Assembly: GCA_913055695.1 (NCBI GenBank)
Contig: CAJXKF010000005.1
Coordinates: forward strand, 1-64,000
DNA: 64,000 bases
Direction of reading: 5' to 3'
Origin: an uncultured Methylophaga sp.
GTDB lineage: Bacteria > Pseudomonadota > Gammaproteobacteria > Nitrosococcales > Methylophagaceae
Made by a program: the position numbers and the translations under genes. Position 1 is the stretch's first letter. Each line of letters starts with the position of its first letter. Shown here piece by piece: positions 1 through 6,825 of this stretch. Below the pieces are notes generated by a model. That model had not been told where the DNA came from and ran no database searches. It worked only from the letters and a program-made list of their open reading frames with translations.

Positions 1-158
1 ATTTGTGTCAGTTCTGAATAACGCTGGTTAGCATAGTTACCAGCAGGCATCACCCAGTTGGCTTCATTTTGTTGCATCTGCAGCAATTCGTCAGCTGCAG
101 TGGCCATACCGGGTACAGCCAGAGACATCATTGCCAATGATAATGTTTTCAGCTTCAT
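1..158 (-). CDS. xoxF: PQQ-dependent methanol dehydrogenase, XoxF-like, N-terminal fragment
   Basis: Only the first 52 codons lie in the window; the gene runs off the left edge. The start codon at 158 follows a good ribosome site (AGAGGT, about 165-170). Residues 1-21 are a Sec signal peptide (MKLKTLSLAMMSLAVPG, then ATA before ADE), so the product is periplasmic. The mature start contains NWVMPAGNYANQRYSEL, the conserved opening of the eight-bladed PQQ methanol dehydrogenases; NQRYSEL resembles the lanthanide-type XoxF more than calcium-type MxaF. The family oxidises methanol to formaldehyde and passes electrons to a c-type cytochrome. The metal-deciding residues are outside the window, so XoxF rather than MxaF is an inference. 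Neighbouring pqqA and two response regulators fit this role. Confidence 0.8.
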   Translation of the reverse strand, partial: MKLKTLSLAMMSLAVPGMATAADELLQMQQNEANWVMPAGNYANQRYSELTQ

Positions 159-322
159 TAGATTTACCTCTTCTACATTAGAGTTGGTTGGTGACTATGA
201 AGTGGATAGTCACTGAGCACTACTCTATGCCGGATATTCCCATTTTTCATTAGGAAGCTATCACTGTGGAGGTAGGAATTTTTCCCTATGAATATAGGAA
301 AATATCTTAGGAGAGAATCAGA
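159..322 (-). promoter_or_regulatory. Upstream region of the methanol dehydrogenase: leader hairpin and phased TAGGAA repeats
   Basis: Seen directly: a perfect inverted repeat GTGACTAT / ATAGTCAC (191-198 and 206-213, 7-nt loop) sits 33-55 bases before the start codon and may form a leader hairpin. Further upstream, TAGGAA occurs at 251, 273 and 295, exactly 22 bases apart, about two helical turns. The last copy is also part of an inverted repeat CCTAT-GAAT-ATAGG (285-298). Inferred: phased activator sites, plausibly for one of the LuxR-type regulators encoded next door. No convincing -35/-10 pair was assigned. Confidence 0.45.
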
Positions 323-958
323 CTACTGTAGTCTGATGATTTGATGTTTGATGGCCAGTCTCACCAGCTCGACCGGAGTATGAATATTAAGCTTGTGTTT
401 GAGCTGGGTCTGATAATTAGCCACCGTTTTTTGACCGATTTTAAGGGTCTCAGCGATTGTGTCAATGTCTGCTCCTTCTGCCAGCAGACGGAAAATTTCA
501 AACTCTCTCGGTGTCAGCGAACGGGTTGGATCGTCATCAGCAGAAATATTTTGCAGTGCTATCGCCTGCGCGACTTCCGAACTGAGATAGCTTTTCCCGC
601 TGGCAACCTGACGAACCGCCTGAATCACTTCCTCGGCCGTGCTGGATTTCAACACATAACCTTTAGCCCCGGCACCGATGGCCTGAACCGCAAACACCAC
701 TTCTGTATGTGACGTAAACATGATGAGCTTGGCTTCGGGGTAGCGGGCTTTGATCTGGCTCAGAGTGGCCAGGCCACTTGAGCCCGACATGTTCATATCC
801 ATCAACATCACGTCGGGCTGATGCTGATGGTAGAGCTTGTAAGCATCGTCACCGGTATCGGCTTCTGCAATGACCTGCAGGTCCGCCTGCTCTTCCAGCA
901 GTCGTTTGACGCCGGAGCGCACTACAACGTGATCGTCAACCAGTATTACTTTAATCAT
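323..958 (-). CDS. NarL/LuxR-family response regulator (first of two)
   Basis: A 211-residue two-component regulator. The receiver domain (residues 1-120) begins MIKVILVDDH and has the phospho-acceptor Asp in DVMLMDMNM and the conserved Lys in GYVLKSS. A LuxR-type HTH occupies about 145-205 (LTPREFEIFRLLAEG, then IGQKTVANYQTQLKHKLN). I start at 958, where MIKV begins after an AGGGA site, rather than at the longer in-frame start at 1018, which adds 20 residues with no family counterpart. It lies between pqqA and the methanol dehydrogenase, all on one strand. LuxR-type regulators control methanol dehydrogenase genes in other methylotrophs (MxaB type), and that role is inferred here. No kinase is adjacent; the nearest is at 2058-3770. 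Confidence 0.85.
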   Translation of the reverse strand: MIKVILVDDHVVVRSGVKRLLEEQADLQVIAEADTGDDAYKLYHQHQPDVMLMDMNMSGSSGLATLSQIKARYPEAKLIMFTSHTEVVFAVQAIGAGAKGYVLKSSTAEEVIQAVRQVASGKSYLSSEVAQAIALQNISADDDPTRSLTPREFEIFRLLAEGADIDTIAETLKIGQKTVANYQTQLKHKLNIHTPVELVRLAIKHQIIRLQ

Positions 959-1170
959 TATGTTGTCCCTTTCAAAACTTCCATTACTGCGAAGCCCATT
1001 TGAGTTGGACTGCCTCACAAAAATGACCGTAATTCACAAGTCATAATCAGCTCTGTAACGCTTTTGTAGACCGCTGGTCGCGGTTTTAGTTCTTCAAAGC
1101 AAATGTAACAGCCTTAGCTGAATTCATTATTAATAACCATACACCGTTGCCTCCGGTTTCGGACATAAAA

Positions 1171-1193
1171 AAACCCGGCAGAGCCGGGTTTTT
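1171..1193 (-). terminator. Rho-independent terminator after pqqA
   Basis: Stem AACCCGGC / GCCGGGTT with a 3-nt AGA loop (1172-1190). Read on the minus strand it ends in a run of T, so it fits termination just after pqqA, insulating it from the regulator downstream. Confidence 0.8.
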
Positions 1194-1216
1194 CTGAGTT
1201 TGGTTTCTCTATGCTA

Positions 1217-1288
1217 TTAGCGGTTGCAAATATACATAGTGACTTCGAAACCGAAACGCATGTCTGAATATTCTGGTTTAGTCCACAT
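1217..1288 (-). CDS. pqqA: PqqA, precursor peptide of pyrroloquinoline quinone
   Basis: A 23-codon gene reading MWTKPEYSDM, then RFGFEVTMYICNR. It carries the hallmark E-V-T-M-Y core: the glutamate and tyrosine that PqqE and the later enzymes cross-link into the PQQ cofactor. The length (23 residues) is typical. The start follows GAGGTGATTACT, with GAGGTG as the ribosome site. A strong terminator lies directly after it and no pqqB, C, D or E gene is in the window, so it is a free-standing copy expressed on its own. PQQ is the cofactor of the dehydrogenase beginning at 158. Stand-alone or multiple pqqA copies are known in methylotrophs; whether others exist in this genome cannot be seen. Confidence 0.93.
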   Translation of the reverse strand: MWTKPEYSDMRFGFEVTMYICNR

Positions 1289-1394
1289 AGTAATCACCTC
1301 TTTTTATTTCTTGAAACACCGGATGACCGGATTCGTTAAGTTGTAGATTACAGAGCGCCCCAAAAAAGCCAGAGAGGAATTTGCTCGCTGTGAC

Positions 1395-1409
1395 TCAGGA
1401 TTTTCCTGA
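1395..1409. promoter_or_regulatory. Perfect short palindrome upstream of pqqA
   Basis: TCAGGA-TTT-TCCTGA lies between the end of the second response regulator gene and pqqA, about 107-121 bases before the pqqA start. There is no clear T-run, so a terminator is less likely than a protein-binding site. On the minus strand it reads CAGGAAAAT, close to the TAGGAAAAT found upstream of the dehydrogenase. The role is inferred only. Confidence 0.3.
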
Positions 1410-1416
1410 ATCGATT

Positions 1417-2061
1417 TCAGGCATCCACCAGACCACTGCGAATAGCCAGACGAGCCAGTTCAGCCGAGTTGGAAACATTCAGTTTTTGCTTGATGTTGGT
1501 GTGGTGTGTGCCAACTGTTTTGGGGCTGAGGCTGAGGATGTCGGCGATCTCATTGACGGTTTTGCCCTCGGCCAGCAGCCTGAATACTTCAAACTCCCGC
1601 TGACTTAACACATCCAGCGGATTCTCGGAGCCGGTTAATTTCTGCATCGCCAGTTGCTGCGCGATTTCCGGTGCAATACAGGTTTTGCCCTGTGCCACCA
1701 GCTCAACGGCTTTCAGCATTTCTTCCGGCGCACTGCGTTTGGGAATAAACCCCAGAGCCCCGGCCTGCATGGCCCGGGTAGTAAATACGCTGTCCTCATG
1801 CACGCTCAGTACCAGAATTCTGGCATTCGGCTCGCGCGCGACAATGCGCTCAATAGCACCGACACCGCCAATGCCGGGCATGGATATATCCATTACCACG
1901 ACATCCGGATGATGTTTGTTGAAATCCTGAACCGCCTGTTCGCCACTGCCTGATTCAGCTACGACGGTAAACTTGTCACCATCTTCCAGTAAACGGCGAA
2001 AGCCTGCCCGTACCAGTTCGTGATCATCCACCAGCAAGACTTTTGTTTTGTTTAGGCTCAT
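1417..2061 (-). CDS. NarL/LuxR-family response regulator, partner of the adjacent kinase
   Basis: A 214-residue regulator: receiver (KVLLVDDHELVRAG at the start, phospho-Asp in DVVVMDISMPG, Lys in GFIPKRS) and LuxR-type HTH (LSQREFEVFRLLAEG, LSPKTVGTHHTNIKQKLN). Its start overlaps the end of the histidine-kinase gene by 4 bases (ATGA type), implying translational coupling and a cognate pair. It closes the compact run bepA-soxY-soxZ-kinase-regulator, with pqqA 128 bases further on. Together with the similar protein at 323-958 it makes two LuxR-type regulators beside one kinase. Likely targets are the pqqA and dehydrogenase promoters; this is inferred from position. Confidence 0.88.
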   Translation of the reverse strand: MSLNKTKVLLVDDHELVRAGFRRLLEDGDKFTVVAESGSGEQAVQDFNKHHPDVVVMDISMPGIGGVGAIERIVAREPNARILVLSVHEDSVFTTRAMQAGALGFIPKRSAPEEMLKAVELVAQGKTCIAPEIAQQLAMQKLTGSENPLDVLSQREFEVFRLLAEGKTVNEIADILSLSPKTVGTHHTNIKQKLNVSNSAELARLAIRSGLVDA

Positions 2062-3770
2062 ATCAGTCTGTCCGCTCCGAGAGGAATCTTAATTTTTATC
2101 GCCACCCCGTCACCGGGTTCACTCAGCAGCTTGAACTCGCCGCCCATACTCTGCACTCTTTCACGCATGCCCAACAGGCCGAAATCGACATCTGAGTGAA
2201 AATCTTTGACCACCATGCCTTTGCCGTTGTCACTGATTTCAATCGTCAACGCATCCTTATCAGTACCCTGCTCGGCATGAATCTGAACTTTGATCTGGCT
2301 GGCCTGGGCATGACGCACCGCGTTGGTGATGGCTTCCTGCACTACTCTGAAGACCGTCATATTCATGGCTTCGTTCAGATTGTCGAGTTTACCGCTGATC
2401 TGCAACACAAAATTGATATCCGCTTCGCGTTCACGCCAACTGGCTATACTCTGCTCCAGTGTCGGCACCAGTCCCAGATCATCGAGCGGACTGGGTCGCA
2501 GACGGGTGATCATATTATGCACCACATCATAGATATGACTGGCGGTGTCAATAATCGCCTGGGCACTACCATGAATGCGGGGCTCATTGTCCTGCGTGCG
2601 GTTACGGATTAGTACCGCATCCGTCTTGATGGCGGTCAGACATTGTCCCAGTTCATCATGCAGCTCACGTGCGAGGTGACGACGCTCTGCTTCCTGGACC
2701 TCGTCCATGTGCTTGGTTAACAGCCGGGTTTCACGTAACTGGTTACGCGCCATTTCCGCCTGTTTAAGCTCAGTAATATCTCTCAGCGTACAGACCAGAC
2801 CGATGATTTGCTGATTGTTGTCATATAGCGGCACGCTGGACATTAACAAGGTCAGTTGTTCTCCGTCAGGCCGTGTCAGCGTGGTTTCCATATTCTCAAT
2901 GGTTTCGCAGTTTTCCAGTACCCGGGCTATCGTCTTACGCTGATGGTCAAAACCGAGATTGGCCAGAGCTTCGCCTTTGAGCACTGGCGTTTGCTTGGCA
3001 AACAAGCGTTCAGCGGTGGAATTGCAGAAAGTGATGTTACCGGCATGGTCGAGTGCCAGGATGGCGTCACCGGATTGCCGGACCAGCATGGCCAGCCTCT
3101 GGTTTTCGGCTGAACTCAGCTCCAGCGCCTGGCCCATACGGTTGAACGTCTGGCTGATCTGATTCATTTCGGGCAGCGTGAAGCTGGGCAGCCTTGAATG
3201 CAAATCACCCCGTTCGAAAGCCGCCAATGCCTGAAGCAAACGTTGCAGTGGTCGCAAAAACCAGTCAACGCCCCAATATAAAAAGATACTGACAAACACA
3301 AACACCACCATTCCCAGTCCGATGATGCTGCGAATATCCTGCCAGCGGTCGCTGATTTCCTGCATTGGCGCGGCATAAATCACCATATGACCGTTGCCGA
3401 AGCGTTTGCTTAAAGGCGTAATTTCAGGGAACAGAATTTTAACGAACCAGTCCGGTGGCTCGACTTCCAGGGTCGGCTCCGGCTCGCCTTCATAAAGCAG
3501 CCCCTGGGCATCAAACAGCAGGATATGCAGGCTGCGAATTTCACTCAGTGCCTTGATCATTTCATGCATCTGTTCGTTGATACCCAGCTCCCGGTTGAGC
3601 GGACGGTCAGCGAGCGTGAGTGTGATCAGTCTTGCGGCGGCATCCATGGTGTCCTGGACTTCTTTTTCTACCGACTGCCGGGCGTTGGAGATCAAGACAC
3701 CGGTTCCAGCCATCAGAGAGGCCAGTAAAAGAATGGTGAAGAAAAGGTTAACCTTGAGTTTCAGACTCAT
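2058..3770 (-). CDS. Membrane sensor histidine kinase, NarX-like (HAMP-PAS-HisKA_3-HATPase)
   Basis: A 570-residue inner-membrane sensor kinase. A transmembrane helix at about 8-28 is followed by a periplasmic sensor domain (about 30-145), a second helix (about 148-168, IIGLGMVVFVFVSIF), HAMP, a PAS domain (about 220-340) and a HisKA_3 dimerisation domain whose phospho-His is in RRHLARELHDELGQC. A HATPase with DNGKGM and GLLGMRERV closes it. This is the NarX/DegS class that pairs with LuxR-type regulators. It overlaps soxZ by 4 bases upstream and its regulator by 4 bases downstream. Its position in a SoxYZ/pqqA/methanol-dehydrogenase neighbourhood suggests control of methanol oxidation; the signal is unknown. 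Confidence 0.88.
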   Translation of the reverse strand: MSLKLKVNLFFTILLLASLMAGTGVLISNARQSVEKEVQDTMDAAARLITLTLADRPLNRELGINEQMHEMIKALSEIRSLHILLFDAQGLLYEGEPEPTLEVEPPDWFVKILFPEITPLSKRFGNGHMVIYAAPMQEISDRWQDIRSIIGLGMVVFVFVSIFLYWGVDWFLRPLQRLLQALAAFERGDLHSRLPSFTLPEMNQISQTFNRMGQALELSSAENQRLAMLVRQSGDAILALDHAGNITFCNSTAERLFAKQTPVLKGEALANLGFDHQRKTIARVLENCETIENMETTLTRPDGEQLTLLMSSVPLYDNNQQIIGLVCTLRDITELKQAEMARNQLRETRLLTKHMDEVQEAERRHLARELHDELGQCLTAIKTDAVLIRNRTQDNEPRIHGSAQAIIDTASHIYDVVHNMITRLRPSPLDDLGLVPTLEQSIASWREREADINFVLQISGKLDNLNEAMNMTVFRVVQEAITNAVRHAQASQIKVQIHAEQGTDKDALTIEISDNGKGMVVKDFHSDVDFGLLGMRERVQSMGGEFKLLSEPGDGVAIKIKIPLGADRLI

Positions 3771-4084
3771 GACAGGGTGGTCTCGGCAATCCCTTTGGCG
3801 CCGAGGTTATCCACCCAACGAACCATGATTTTGTCGCCGGAAGCACCACCTGCCAGTTGAAAAGAAAAATAGGGGTTACGTGCTGTCGCTGTGCCGCACT
3901 TGATAGTCAGAACTTCCCTGCCATTACGCCAGCAGCGGATATCCTGGATAAACTCGGCCGGGATCAGCTCGCCCTGCTCGTTTTTACCTCTGCCGGTGTG
4001 CATCGGGTGAGCGAGCAATACCCGCACGATGGTCTGCTCATCGATGAGCTTGGCACGTATTCTGTCTCTGGCTTTGATCGCCAT
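3767..4084 (-). CDS. soxZ: SoxZ-like sulfur-carrier partner protein
   Basis: A 105-residue protein with the SoxZ immunoglobulin-like fold signatures: HPMHTGRG, IPAEFI, NPYFSFQLAGG, GDKIMVRWVDN. In the Sox pathway SoxZ binds SoxY and the complex carries sulfur intermediates in the periplasm. It has no signal peptide, as expected, since SoxZ is exported with Tat-dependent SoxY. The start overlaps the soxY stop by 1 base and the end overlaps the kinase start by 4. No soxA, B, C, D or X is in the window. SoxYZ-like carriers are known next to quinoprotein dehydrogenases in methylotrophs, so a role tied to methanol dehydrogenase is as likely as thiosulfate oxidation. Confidence 0.82.
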   Translation of the reverse strand: MAIKARDRIRAKLIDEQTIVRVLLAHPMHTGRGKNEQGELIPAEFIQDIRCWRNGREVLTIKCGTATARNPYFSFQLAGGASGDKIMVRWVDNLGAKGIAETTLS

Positions 4085-4572
4085 CAGGCACAGCCTCCAA
4101 TATCTACCGCAATGTCGCGTGAGGTTCTGTAGAGCTTACCATCCGCTCGTACCACGGCAATCACTTCAGAGTCTTCCGCGACTTTGATCATGCTTTTGAA
4201 AGGCAAGACCACATCAGGCGTCAGCTCAACGCTCATCGCCAGCGGGTTGGGATTTTTCTCAACCAGAATTGCAATACGTTCGATATTCTTCAAGTCACTG
4301 CGGACCTCGACCGGCACCGAGGCACCGTTAACAGCATAGCTGGGCGGCGCGCCAAGTTTAAAAGCGATTTGTTTGGCATCTGCGACTTCTGCTTCACCCA
4401 GCAAAGCCAGCAGCGCATCCTCAACGCTTTCTGCAGTAAAAGCATCGCTGGGCCAGTGGGCGAGCAGGCGACGCGGAAGCAATAATCCGCTGCTGGCAAC
4501 CAGGGCCAAGGTGGAAGCGGAGATAGCGCCTTTAAGAAATGAGCGCCGTTTGGAATCGGCTTGGTGTGTCAT
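4084..4572 (-). CDS. soxY: SoxY-like sulfur-carrier protein, Tat-exported
   Basis: A 162-residue protein. The N-terminus has a twin-arginine signal (KRRSFLKGAISAST, then a hydrophobic stretch), so it is exported folded, presumably with SoxZ. The body fits SoxY (PNPLAMSVELTPDV, LPFKSMIKVAEDSEV). The carrier cysteine is at the extreme C-terminus: the protein ends DIGGCA, whereas classical SoxY ends GGCGG, so the swinging arm is shorter by one residue and has Ala in place of Gly. It starts 4 bases after the bepA stop. The cysteine supports a sulfur-carrying role; the partners and substrate here are not known. Confidence 0.82.
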   Translation of the reverse strand: MTHQADSKRRSFLKGAISASTLALVASSGLLLPRRLLAHWPSDAFTAESVEDALLALLGEAEVADAKQIAFKLGAPPSYAVNGASVPVEVRSDLKNIERIAILVEKNPNPLAMSVELTPDVVLPFKSMIKVAEDSEVIAVVRADGKLYRTSRDIAVDIGGCA

Positions 4573-4576
4573 GCTG

Positions 4577-6031
4577 TTACTGTTCCATTTGCGCCATAGC
4601 TTCTTCTATTTCACGCAGTCTTGAAGCGATTTTGGCGCGTTGATATTCATCATTGCCGGCGGCTTTTGCTGCCAGTTGCAATTGGTCTGCGGCGGCTTTG
4701 AGCAGGCCTGACTGGTAGTAATATTCTGCCAGCCAGCTATGGGACTGACTCATCTGCCCCATCTCCCCTTTGGCCTGCGCCAGCAGTTTATACACATTGC
4801 GGGAAGTTTCACCGAGCTCAATCTGTGTTTGCAACAGTTTATCGGCTTCAAAGGCGCGGCCGGTTCTCAGCAATGCCTTGACCTGTTCCATCGTCAATGC
4901 CTGATCATCAGGATAGAGGCGCTGGTTATCTTCATATATTTCCAGTGCTGCCTCAACCCGGCCAACCGCCATTTCGATATCGGCCAGTGCCAGTTGGTAA
5001 GCCAGCCGGTCTTTTTCTTTTTCCAGTAGCGGCTGCAGGGCTTCTCTTGCCAGTGTATGTTGACCACTCTTAAGCAAAGCCAGCGCGTAGCCATAACGAA
5101 CGGCTTCCCTATTGGTGTCATCCTCACGTGACATTGCTGATTTGTAATGCTGCAGCAAATCACTGGCATCTTCCGTCATCATCACCCTGAGCTTCTCTTT
5201 GATGAGATAAAACTGCTTGGGATCCGACAGTTGCGGCTTCATCTGATAATTGGCAGCGCGTCCACGGGCATCAGCGATACGGGAAGTAGTCACCGGGTGA
5301 GTTCGCAGAAATTCAGGGATATTATCGCCGCCATAATAGCGGCTGGCCTGCTGTAATTTTTCAAAAAAACTGGGCATGGCATCGGGGTCAAAACCTGATT
5401 CCACCAGCGTTTCCATCCCCAGGTTGTCGGCCTCGGCCTCATGTGCGCGGCTGTAATCAAGCTGACTCTGAATATCGCCGGCCTGAACTGCCATCATTGC
5501 TGCTGAGCCGGCTCTCGGATCGGCCGCGCCCAGCAGCGCCGCAGCAATCATCGCCGCAGTACGCGGAATGGTCATGCGTTTATGACGTTCAAAGCTGCGC
5601 AGAATATGCCGCTGGGTAATGTGCGCGATCTCGTGCGCCATCACTGATGCCAGTTCCGACTCGTTCTCCGCGGTCAGCAACAAGCCACTGTTAACCCCGA
5701 TAAAACCGCCGGGTGCCGCAAAGGCGTTGACAGTCGGATCGGGCAGCATAAAGAAAGTGTAATCGAGCCCGGGTTCATCACTGTTGGCCGCCAGCCGATA
5801 GCCCAGTGACTGAATATAGCTGTTGATCTCCGGGTCCTCAATCAACGGGGTGGATTGCTGCAAGCGCCAGAAAAAGGCCTGGCCGATTTCATATTCCTCC
5901 CGGGGAGAAATCAGCGCACCGGCACTGTCTCCCATTTCCGGCAGGGCAATGTCGAGGGCATTGCTCTGTGTCAGCGGCAATGACAGGCAGGCCAGTAAAC
6001 TCAGGGTGATTAATCGTTTCATACAGTGCAT
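4577..6031 (-). CDS. bepA: BepA/YfgC-like M48 metalloprotease with TPR domain
   Basis: A 484-residue periplasmic protease and chaperone of outer-membrane assembly. A signal peptide spans about 1-25 (LSLLACLSLPLTQSNALD). The M48 zinc site is HEIAHITQRH, with the third ligand in the HEAEADNLG segment. TPR-like helices fill about 290-475. In E. coli BepA promotes LptD maturation and degrades stalled outer-membrane proteins. I prefer the start at 6031, which has GGGGGA seven bases upstream; an internal ATG at 6022 is possible. It heads the minus-strand run into soxY with a 4-base gap, an unexpected partner for soxYZ and a sensor kinase. The gene is divergent from tusA. Confidence 0.88.
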   Translation of the reverse strand: MHCMKRLITLSLLACLSLPLTQSNALDIALPEMGDSAGALISPREEYEIGQAFFWRLQQSTPLIEDPEINSYIQSLGYRLAANSDEPGLDYTFFMLPDPTVNAFAAPGGFIGVNSGLLLTAENESELASVMAHEIAHITQRHILRSFERHKRMTIPRTAAMIAAALLGAADPRAGSAAMMAVQAGDIQSQLDYSRAHEAEADNLGMETLVESGFDPDAMPSFFEKLQQASRYYGGDNIPEFLRTHPVTTSRIADARGRAANYQMKPQLSDPKQFYLIKEKLRVMMTEDASDLLQHYKSAMSREDDTNREAVRYGYALALLKSGQHTLAREALQPLLEKEKDRLAYQLALADIEMAVGRVEAALEIYEDNQRLYPDDQALTMEQVKALLRTGRAFEADKLLQTQIELGETSRNVYKLLAQAKGEMGQMSQSHSWLAEYYYQSGLLKAAADQLQLAAKAAGNDEYQRAKIASRLREIEEAMAQMEQ

Positions 6032-6125: not shown

Positions 6126-6368
6126 ATGTCAGAATTTGATGTAGAAATTGACTCATCCGGTCTCAATTGTCCACTGCCCGTATTAAAAGCGCGTAAAGCA
6201 CTGGCCGATATGTCGGCAGGCCAGAAATTACACCTGATTGCTACCGACCTCGGTGCCAATAAAGACATTCCGGCATTCTGCAAAATGACCGGCAACCCCT
6301 TGATCGACAGCTCTGAATCAGAGGGCAAACTGCATTTCACTATCGAGAAGGGAGAAACCAATGGCTAA
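6126..6368 (+). CDS. tusA: TusA-family sulfur-transfer protein
   Basis: An 80-residue cytoplasmic sulfur carrier with the family motif CPLPVLKARKAL, whose first Cys receives persulfide sulfur. TusA-type proteins act in tRNA thiolation or, next to DsrE-type proteins, in sulfur trafficking and oxidation. I chose the ATG at 6126 (MSEFDVEIDSSG) because the longer in-frame start at 6102 adds an atypical extension. It overlaps the following dsrE-like gene by 8 bases, so the two are coupled. The head-to-head soxYZ operon adds a second sulfur-carrier system, although transcription is divergent. Confidence 0.9.
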   Translation: MSEFDVEIDSSGLNCPLPVLKARKALADMSAGQKLHLIATDLGANKDIPAFCKMTGNPLIDSSESEGKLHFTIEKGETNG

Positions 6369-6825
6369 GAAAATGGCCATCATCGCCAGCAAAGGCACAC
6401 TGGATGGGGCCTATCCTCCATTTTTGCTCGCATCGACTGCAGCAGCGTTGGGGTTTGAAGCCAAGATTTTCTTCACCTTCTACGGCCTGCAGCTGCTTAA
6501 CAAAGAACTGAACCTGAAAGTGTCACCATTGGGTAACCCGGCCATGCCGATGCCGGTGACCGTACCCAGTATCGTTCAGGTGCTGCCCGGCCTCGAGGGC
6601 TTTGCCACCTGGATGATGAAACGCAAACTGAAAAAGAAAGGCGTCGCCAGCGTAGAAGAGCTAAGAGAAATCTGCATAGAGTCCGGCGTTGAACTGATTG
6701 CCTGTCAGATGACTGTGGATCTGTTTGACTTCAAACACGAAGACTTTGTTGAGGGTATCAGCAGTGGCGGTGCCGCTACCTTCCTGGAATTTGCTTCCGA
6801 GGCCGATATCACACTCTATATCTAA
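6361..6825 (+). CDS. DsrE/DsrF-family (DsrE2-like) protein
   Basis: A 154-residue protein of the DsrE superfamily. Features include KMAIIASKGTLDGAYP at the start, FFTFYGLQLLNK, and the conserved cysteine in LIACQMTVDLF, where DsrE2 proteins carry the sulfur-binding Cys. The hydrophobic PPFLLASTAAALGFEA segment is typical of the membrane-associated DsrE2 group. Translation is coupled to tusA by overlap. TusA-DsrE2 pairs pass sulfane sulfur in sulfur oxidisers and in cells handling thiosulfate; the direction of flow here is unknown. The stop lies just 6 bases before the tRNA-Arg gene on the other strand. Confidence 0.82.
   Translation: MAKKMAIIASKGTLDGAYPPFLLASTAAALGFEAKIFFTFYGLQLLNKELNLKVSPLGNPAMPMPVTVPSIVQVLPGLEGFATWMMKRKLKKKGVASVEELREICIESGVELIACQMTVDLFDFKHEDFVEGISSGGAATFLEFASEADITLYI

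Follow-up and report, generated by a model that had tools for sequence, protein, structure and literature searches.

SoxYZ-like sulfur carriers are repeatedly found with pyrroloquinoline quinone (PQQ) dehydrogenases, and the reason for this is under discussion (PMC12997753 section 15; PMC11237559). Among the closest described cases is the fused SoxYZ protein (TIGR04557; SoxYZ-S2/S4 of PMC11237559), a SoxYZ-type carrier genetically tied to PQQ dehydrogenases. It has been proposed to protect methanol dehydrogenase (MDH), or to act in disulfide formation or cofactor protection; such carriers may also mature PQQ dehydrogenases, and thiosulfate inhibition of methanol use has been described in Hyphomicrobium (PMC11237559; PMC12997753 section 15). 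The MxaY/MxaB system of Methylomicrobium buryatense, together with METBUDRAFT_1817, provides a regulatory parallel, with a kinase gene followed by a regulator gene and an orphan regulator beside an MDH gene; MxaY controls mxaF and xoxF, and deletion of the adjacent regulator left the switch unaltered (PMC5018670). SoxT1B-SoxR of Hyphomicrobium denitrificans (PMC11582611) places transcription in a methylotroph under the control of an external sulfur signal, and in Hyphomicrobium the influence of sulfur-responsive repressors extends to a second set of pqq genes (PMC12423496). Here we describe an operon of bepA, soxY, soxZ, a sensor histidine kinase gene (HK) and a response regulator gene (RR1), followed by pqqA, at positions 1-6031 of a 64,000-nucleotide stretch (the window) that opens contig C5 (CAJXKF010000005.1) in the genome of an uncultured Methylophaga sp. 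(GCA_913055695.1; G000).

In canonical SoxY, the load is carried on a C-terminal GGC arm. The SoxY and SoxZ proteins of the window share this arm and sequence kinship with canonical SoxYZ (relatives in PDB: 2nnc, 4uwq, and 2ox5), but the arm ends in GGCA here and in GGCA, GGCG, or GGCS in relatives, not in GGCGG. No match to SoxA or SoxB was found in the genome containing the window (99.98% complete), which rules out a role of this SoxYZ in a canonical thiosulfate-oxidising Sox system. SoxY (PF13501) scored 116.5 bits with TIGR04488, below the cut-off of 125, and SoxZ scored 100.2 bits with TIGR04490, above the cut-off of 76. Unlike the fused protein, SoxY and SoxZ are separate chains encoded together with bepA, a kinase, and a regulator, and they scored 52.6 and 47.2 bits with TIGR04557 (cut-off 140); the association of the fused protein with PQQ genes does recur, as pqqA/pqqBCDE or xoxF lies downstream in relatives. 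SoxT1B-SoxR differs in consisting of a membrane transporter and a repressor with no histidine kinase. No link to SoxYZ was found in the excerpts on the MxaY system (PMC5018670), which is set beside the present locus by its published description only. The parts are of known kinds; a SoxYZ-kinase-PQQ operon, its evolutionary pattern, and the pqqA palindrome described below were not found in the open-licence PMC papers searched.

We favour, with moderate confidence, the interpretation that this locus is an operon, conserved in the family Methylophagaceae, that controls PQQ supply and in which SoxYZ acts as a periplasmic thiol helper of the PQQ/MDH system. Established by computation are the gene order and its conservation, the absence of SoxA and SoxB, the link between cysteine, kinase, and MDH inside the family, and the palindrome before pqqA. 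Five genes on the minus strand are tightly coupled: bepA (4577-6031), the first gene of the operon, is separated by 4 bases from soxY (4084-4572), and soxY, soxZ (3767-4084), HK (2058-3770), and RR1 (1417-2061) overlap successively by 1, 4, and 4 bases. The coupling is limited to these genes. RR1 and pqqA (1217-1288, minus strand; a PQQ precursor peptide of 23 aa) are separated by 128 bases containing the conserved palindrome, pqqA and a second regulator gene (RR2) by 258 bases containing a terminator-like hairpin (1167-1195, minus strand; fold of 1150-1215, -24.4 kcal/mol, z -3.67), and RR2 and xoxF by 164 bases. Given these gaps and the hairpin 3' of pqqA, it is likely that pqqA, RR2, and xoxF are each transcribed on their own. 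A promoter and terminator scan yielded no more matches than shuffled sequences, and the folded hairpin was not among them.

A sequence-only reading of the window had described genes on a single strand with junctions of 1-4 bases from bepA through the regulator. Both descriptions are accurate, all genes from bepA to the dehydrogenase being on the minus strand, and the order is kept in relatives. Among 57 family genomes (Methylophagaceae by named relatives), a bepA-linked SoxY with SoxZ and HK was found in 44, on one contig in 43 of them and over two contigs in G021. Of the first 28 family stretches that contain bepA and soxY, 25 have HK and RR1 immediately after soxZ, and RR1 is 78-99% identical in 25 family loci. 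Because the same order recurs across the family, it is far beyond chance. In eight genomes (G026, G028, G033, G068, G070, G071, G076, and G077), soxZ is followed by msrA-pcm-rhodanese-tolC with no HK; this arrangement lies on a second contig in G068 and on one contig with soxY in the other seven. Genome-wide searches for an HK orthologue gave best matches of E 3e-9 or weaker in G026, G028, and G033, no match in G024, and only partial matches of about 40% identity in G005 and G015; for G068, G070, G071, G076, and G077, the absence was read from the soxZ neighbourhood alone. No match to a bepA-linked SoxY was found in five of the 57 genomes (G005, G015, G024, G059, and G075).

The arm cysteine of SoxY is present in all 44 family operons with HK (ends GGCA, GGCG, or GGCS) and in none of the eight lacking it, where SoxY ends in GGDA, GGNA, GGNP (twice), GGVE, GGAV, and GGDI (twice), so that four different residues (D, N, A, and V) stand in for the lost cysteine. 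PQQ MDH is also missing in all eight HK-lacking genomes, the best match there (E 3.8e-10) being at the level at which the same model also scores in control genomes, such as that of E. coli. An MDH match of E 1e-27 or better was found in 42 of the 44 HK-bearing genomes, the exceptions being G011 and G074 (68 and 73% complete, respectively). SoxB was detected in nine of the 57 genomes, namely six of the eight HK-lacking genomes (G070 and G071, which are 67 and 81% complete, gave no match), two of the 44 (G066 and G078), and G059; no SoxB match was found in 42 of the 44 HK-bearing genomes. SoxA was above the cut-off in G026, G028, and G033 and weak in G002 and G031 among the first 35 family genomes. 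G066 and G078 carry SoxB, MDH, and a canonical GGCGG SoxY, yet keep HK and the bepA-linked GGC arm. A canonical Sox system alone thus does not make the cysteine dispensable, and takeover by a second, canonical SoxYZ as the sole cause of the cysteine loss is ruled out. The family offers a natural comparison: within it, the arm cysteine goes with the kinase/PQQ block rather than with possession of a genuine Sox pathway. SoxZ of the family contains two cysteines (in QDIRC and IKCG), both of which are present in most members with or without the kinase; SoxZ of G006 and G010 has one cysteine only.

The palindrome TCAGGAAAATCCTGA (TCAGGA-AAA-TCCTGA; 1395-1409, minus strand), a proposed pqqA operator, lies before pqqA in the window, with its far edge 121 bases from the pqqA start. 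Alignment of 30 sequences of the 140 bases 5' of the first pqqA gave the consensus TnAGGAAAATCCTGAGT just past the RR1 stop codon, with one or two arm bases differing in some rows, and a -10-like GTAnAnT downstream. Across family stretches totalling 1,028,409 bases, the degenerate motif TMANGAAAATCNTKA gave 37 matches, all but one of them (36) 111-137 bases upstream of a pqqA start; 200 column-permuted motifs gave a mean of 0.22 matches and a maximum of 4. Outside the family, 71 kinase loci (1,193,632 bases; some are short or end near the kinase) contain six pqqA genes in total, and four of the seven strict matches in these loci precede a pqqA, as TCATGAAAATCATGA or a near form. A pqqA lies near HK in five of the 71 loci (L098, L106, L127, L130, and L136), each with pqqBCDE within 10 kb (23 of the 71 loci examined). 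The distance from HK-RR1 to pqqABCDE is at most 3 kb in these five, and four of them carry TCATGAAAATCATGA-type sites before pqqA. RR1 of these five contains GTHLYNIKQKL in its DNA-binding domain, where RR1 of the window has GTHHTNIKQKL, and this GTH(H/L)xNIKQKL stretch differs from that of four other regulators seen in G005. The outside sites and the shared RR1 stretch connect this HK-RR1 family with pqqA in lineages that lack SoxYZ in the vicinity. The operator evidence points to pqqA, i.e. cofactor supply, as the target of HK-RR1, rather than to the dehydrogenase gene. The earlier proposal that SoxYZ and the kinase are tied to methanol oxidation therefore stands in part: gene order, the missing SoxA and SoxB, and the cysteine pattern (44 of 44 versus none of eight) agree with it, but the indicated target is pqqA.

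We infer the binding of RR1, the direction of regulation, the kinase signal, the export route, and the chemistry of SoxYZ as follows. An older bepA-soxYZ operon would have been joined to an HK-RR1 pair standing in front of the PQQ biosynthesis genes. HK would read a periplasmic state, and RR1, or another regulator that recognises this site, would bind TCAGGAAAATCCTGA 5' of pqqA, thereby setting the production of the PQQ precursor, including that from scattered extra pqqA copies. SoxY has a twin-arginine start, as read from its sequence, and SoxYZ would be exported via the twin-arginine translocation (Tat) pathway and stand outside canonical thiosulfate oxidation. Its arm cysteine would act in the periplasm as a thiol or sulfur carrier for the PQQ/MDH system. 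Most likely it would trap reactive sulfur species (sulfide, sulfite, thiosulfate, or thiols) before they attack PQQ or the dehydrogenase disulfide, or would maintain this disulfide. Co-transcription would let SoxYZ appear together with the PQQ programme. Such a scheme would tie sulfur chemistry to the control of methanol oxidation, and the candidate operator and candidate regulator make it testable in culturable Methylophaga.

Several observations weigh against this interpretation. In G005 (99% complete), MDH, pqqABCDE, and the operator are present, whereas orthologues of BepA, SoxY, and HK are absent; a genome can thus have MDH without the block, and the operator site would be used there either by an RR1 without its kinase or by a different regulator. 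The strict operator stands before the pqq operon of G005, and a second pqqA has a relaxed form upstream, although the genome has no HK orthologue and no RR1 with more than 49% identity was found in the 393,641 bases of it that were read (no genome-wide search was made); this argues against RR1 as the only binder. The joint loss of SoxYZ and HK in G005 fits a functional pair and likewise a simple deletion of the block. MDH matches with no match to a bepA-linked SoxY were also found in G015, G059, and G075 (69-83% complete). G050 (L078), which belongs to another family of the same class, encodes BepA-SoxY-SoxZ with a GGC arm and no adjoining kinase, and no SoxA or SoxB match was found in it; the correspondence between cysteine and kinase thus holds inside the family only, and the GGC arm does not need a kinase everywhere. 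From G050, BepA-SoxYZ is probably older than the link to the kinase. In the BepA tree, the eight HK-lacking genomes form one clade (99/99) nested in the HK-bearing genomes, so that the loss of HK, MDH, and the cysteine counts as a single event. The ratio of nonsynonymous to synonymous substitution rates (dN/dS) of the cysteine-less SoxY and SoxZ is 0.07-0.14 in most measurable pairs (0.32 in one), compared with 0.02-0.16 in HK-bearing pairs; this purifying selection indicates that SoxYZ also has a role without the arm cysteine. A cysteine-independent role thus seems to exist, perhaps with BepA as the partner. Finally, the scanned stretches were chosen around the locus and are related, so that the 36 operator sites are not independent events, and the family stretches contain 67 pqqA matches, of which those beyond the 36 strict sites have diverged or absent operators. 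Cysteine-less SoxYZ still adjoins bepA in L071-L073, in L194-L197, and in L198 with L205.

Of the other explanations, the one closest to the sequence-only reading is that SoxYZ provides the input to the kinase. Its cysteine, once loaded with sulfur or oxidised in the periplasm, would dock on the sensor domain of HK, and PQQ and MDH would thereby be gated by sulfur or redox state. We regard this as unlikely. The 1- and 4-base overlaps of soxY, soxZ, and HK, the agreement between the presence of HK and that of the SoxY cysteine in 52 family operons, and the joint absence of BepA, SoxY, and HK from G005 and G015 agree with it. A match to SoxY or SoxZ, however, was found in none of the 71 outside-family kinase loci (some of which are short), the BepA-SoxYZ of G050 has its GGC arm with no kinase adjoining, and few evolutionary events underlie the pattern seen in the family. 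The kinase contains a sensor region between two N-terminal helices, followed by HAMP, PAS, HisKA_3, and HATPase_c domains, and no cysteine is conserved in the aligned periplasmic sensor domains; a thiol relay to the kinase through such a residue is therefore unsupported. The predicted fold of the sensor region (mean predicted local distance difference test score, pLDDT, 75) had a single PDB match with E < 0.001, an integrative WalK model. SoxYZ may feed the kinase, but no result requires it. It is similarly doubtful that the kinase reads the cysteine state of a repurposed SoxYZ such that reactive sulfur from the breakdown of dimethylsulfide or methanethiol gates PQQ and thereby methanol oxidation; if true, this would be a sulfur-gated cofactor switch.

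Hitchhiking within the operon appears somewhat less probable still: the bepA-soxYZ promoter would drive HK-RR1 with no interaction between the products, and the cysteine would have been lost after a lifestyle change in one clade. A single clade does carry the whole in-family signal of cysteine loss, and BepA-SoxYZ exists with no kinase in L078, but all 44 cysteine-bearing operons of the family keep the order despite variation in what follows RR1, and four residues (D, N, A, and V) replaced the cysteine while the rest of SoxY remained constrained. Equally improbable is that SoxYZ and the nearby TusA and DsrE2 deliver to the cytoplasm the sulfur released when dimethylsulfide or methanethiol is broken down, with the kinase as a mere neighbour, since, despite the frequent divergent tusA and dsrE2 genes (27 and 20 of 28 family stretches, respectively) and the report that Methylophaga thiooxydans has soxYZ without soxAB and makes more of some Sox proteins on dimethylsulfide (PMC6548844), five of the eight HK-lacking genomes (G026, G033, G068, G070, and G071) keep tusA and dsrE2 matches next to bepA-soxYZ although the SoxY cysteine is gone, the reverse of what is predicted, and several operons with the cysteine (L050-L054 and L065) have no DsrE2 beside them.

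The divergent neighbours in the window encode a TusA-like carrier (6126-6368, plus strand; PF01206) and a DsrE2 carrier (6361-6825, plus strand; NF047629, 254.9 bits, cut-off 210). Two of the 27 TusA matches and two of the 20 DsrE2 matches are partial, and no TusA match was found in L072. BepA scored 399.8 bits with NF052400, below the cut-off of 570, yet M48 peptidase (PF01435) and tetratricopeptide repeat domains were found.

The genes following RR1 differ among relatives. In some members of three genera of the family, the order is HK-RR1-pqqA (1-3 copies)-pqqB, followed by pqqC-pqqD-pqqE, genes for an ATP-binding cassette (ABC) ATPase and a permease, and msrA or pcm where the stretch reaches that far; in several HK-bearing relatives, HK-RR1-pqqA(1-3)-pqqBCDE-ABC thus sits between soxZ and msrA/pcm. 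Other relatives (L063, L050, and more) have an HK2-RR2 module and an MDH gene after RR1, before or after a pqqA. In the genome containing the window, pqqA-pqqBCDE-ABC-pcm lies on contig C7 (L206), and one pqqA is left at the old place. The extension of the operon into pqqABCDE in several relatives explains the pqqA that had been described as 'lone', a term that does not hold for a genome with nine copies (window 1217-1288, L206, two in L210, three in L211, L212, and L213). The idea that this pqqA is a special regulatory device was rejected, as the gene sits at the position of the pqq-operon head of relatives and has eight further copies. The nine scattered genes are near-identical (the L213 copy reads RYGFEVT), and several have operator-like palindromes upstream.

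RR2 (323-958, minus strand) encodes a LuxR-type response regulator with Response_reg and GerE domains, as RR1 is also of the LuxR type, and no kinase gene adjoins it here. Its counterparts in the genus are 45-64% identical, with one at 81%, and mostly come after a second kinase, the exceptions being L048 and the 81% copy of L049. Since the window opens at the start of contig C5, the PQQ dehydrogenase gene is cut off and only its first 52 codons remain (3-158, minus strand; TIGR03075, E 3e-4 on 52 aa). The full-length dehydrogenase at the matching place in L063 has the active-site motif WDYD, which we take to be a mark of XoxF, suggesting that the truncated gene is of the xoxF type. Before xoxF in the window (159-322), L062-L065, and L068, an alignment showed another palindrome, CGGGAAAAAATCCCG in its basic or variant form, followed by a box resembling GCATAAAGT; this palindrome is possibly an RR2 site. 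This palindrome and the neighbouring regulator gene of xoxF itself speak against the earlier view that the HK-RR1 pair controls the dehydrogenase gene.

Further carrier genes and operator-like sites were seen elsewhere in the genome containing the window. At the beginning of contig C3 (L079:1908-3816), a metallohydrolase gene, presumably SoxH-like, and a fused SoxYZ gene lie near the start of a second xoxF; in G005, two fused-SoxYZ-like matches are found side by side (L221). Sites resembling the pqqA operator, with two mismatches each, were found at L211:853 and L211:2398, before an open reading frame (ORF) for a secreted-looking protein of 247 aa and a 482-aa ORF, respectively, the latter of which we take to be catalase-like.

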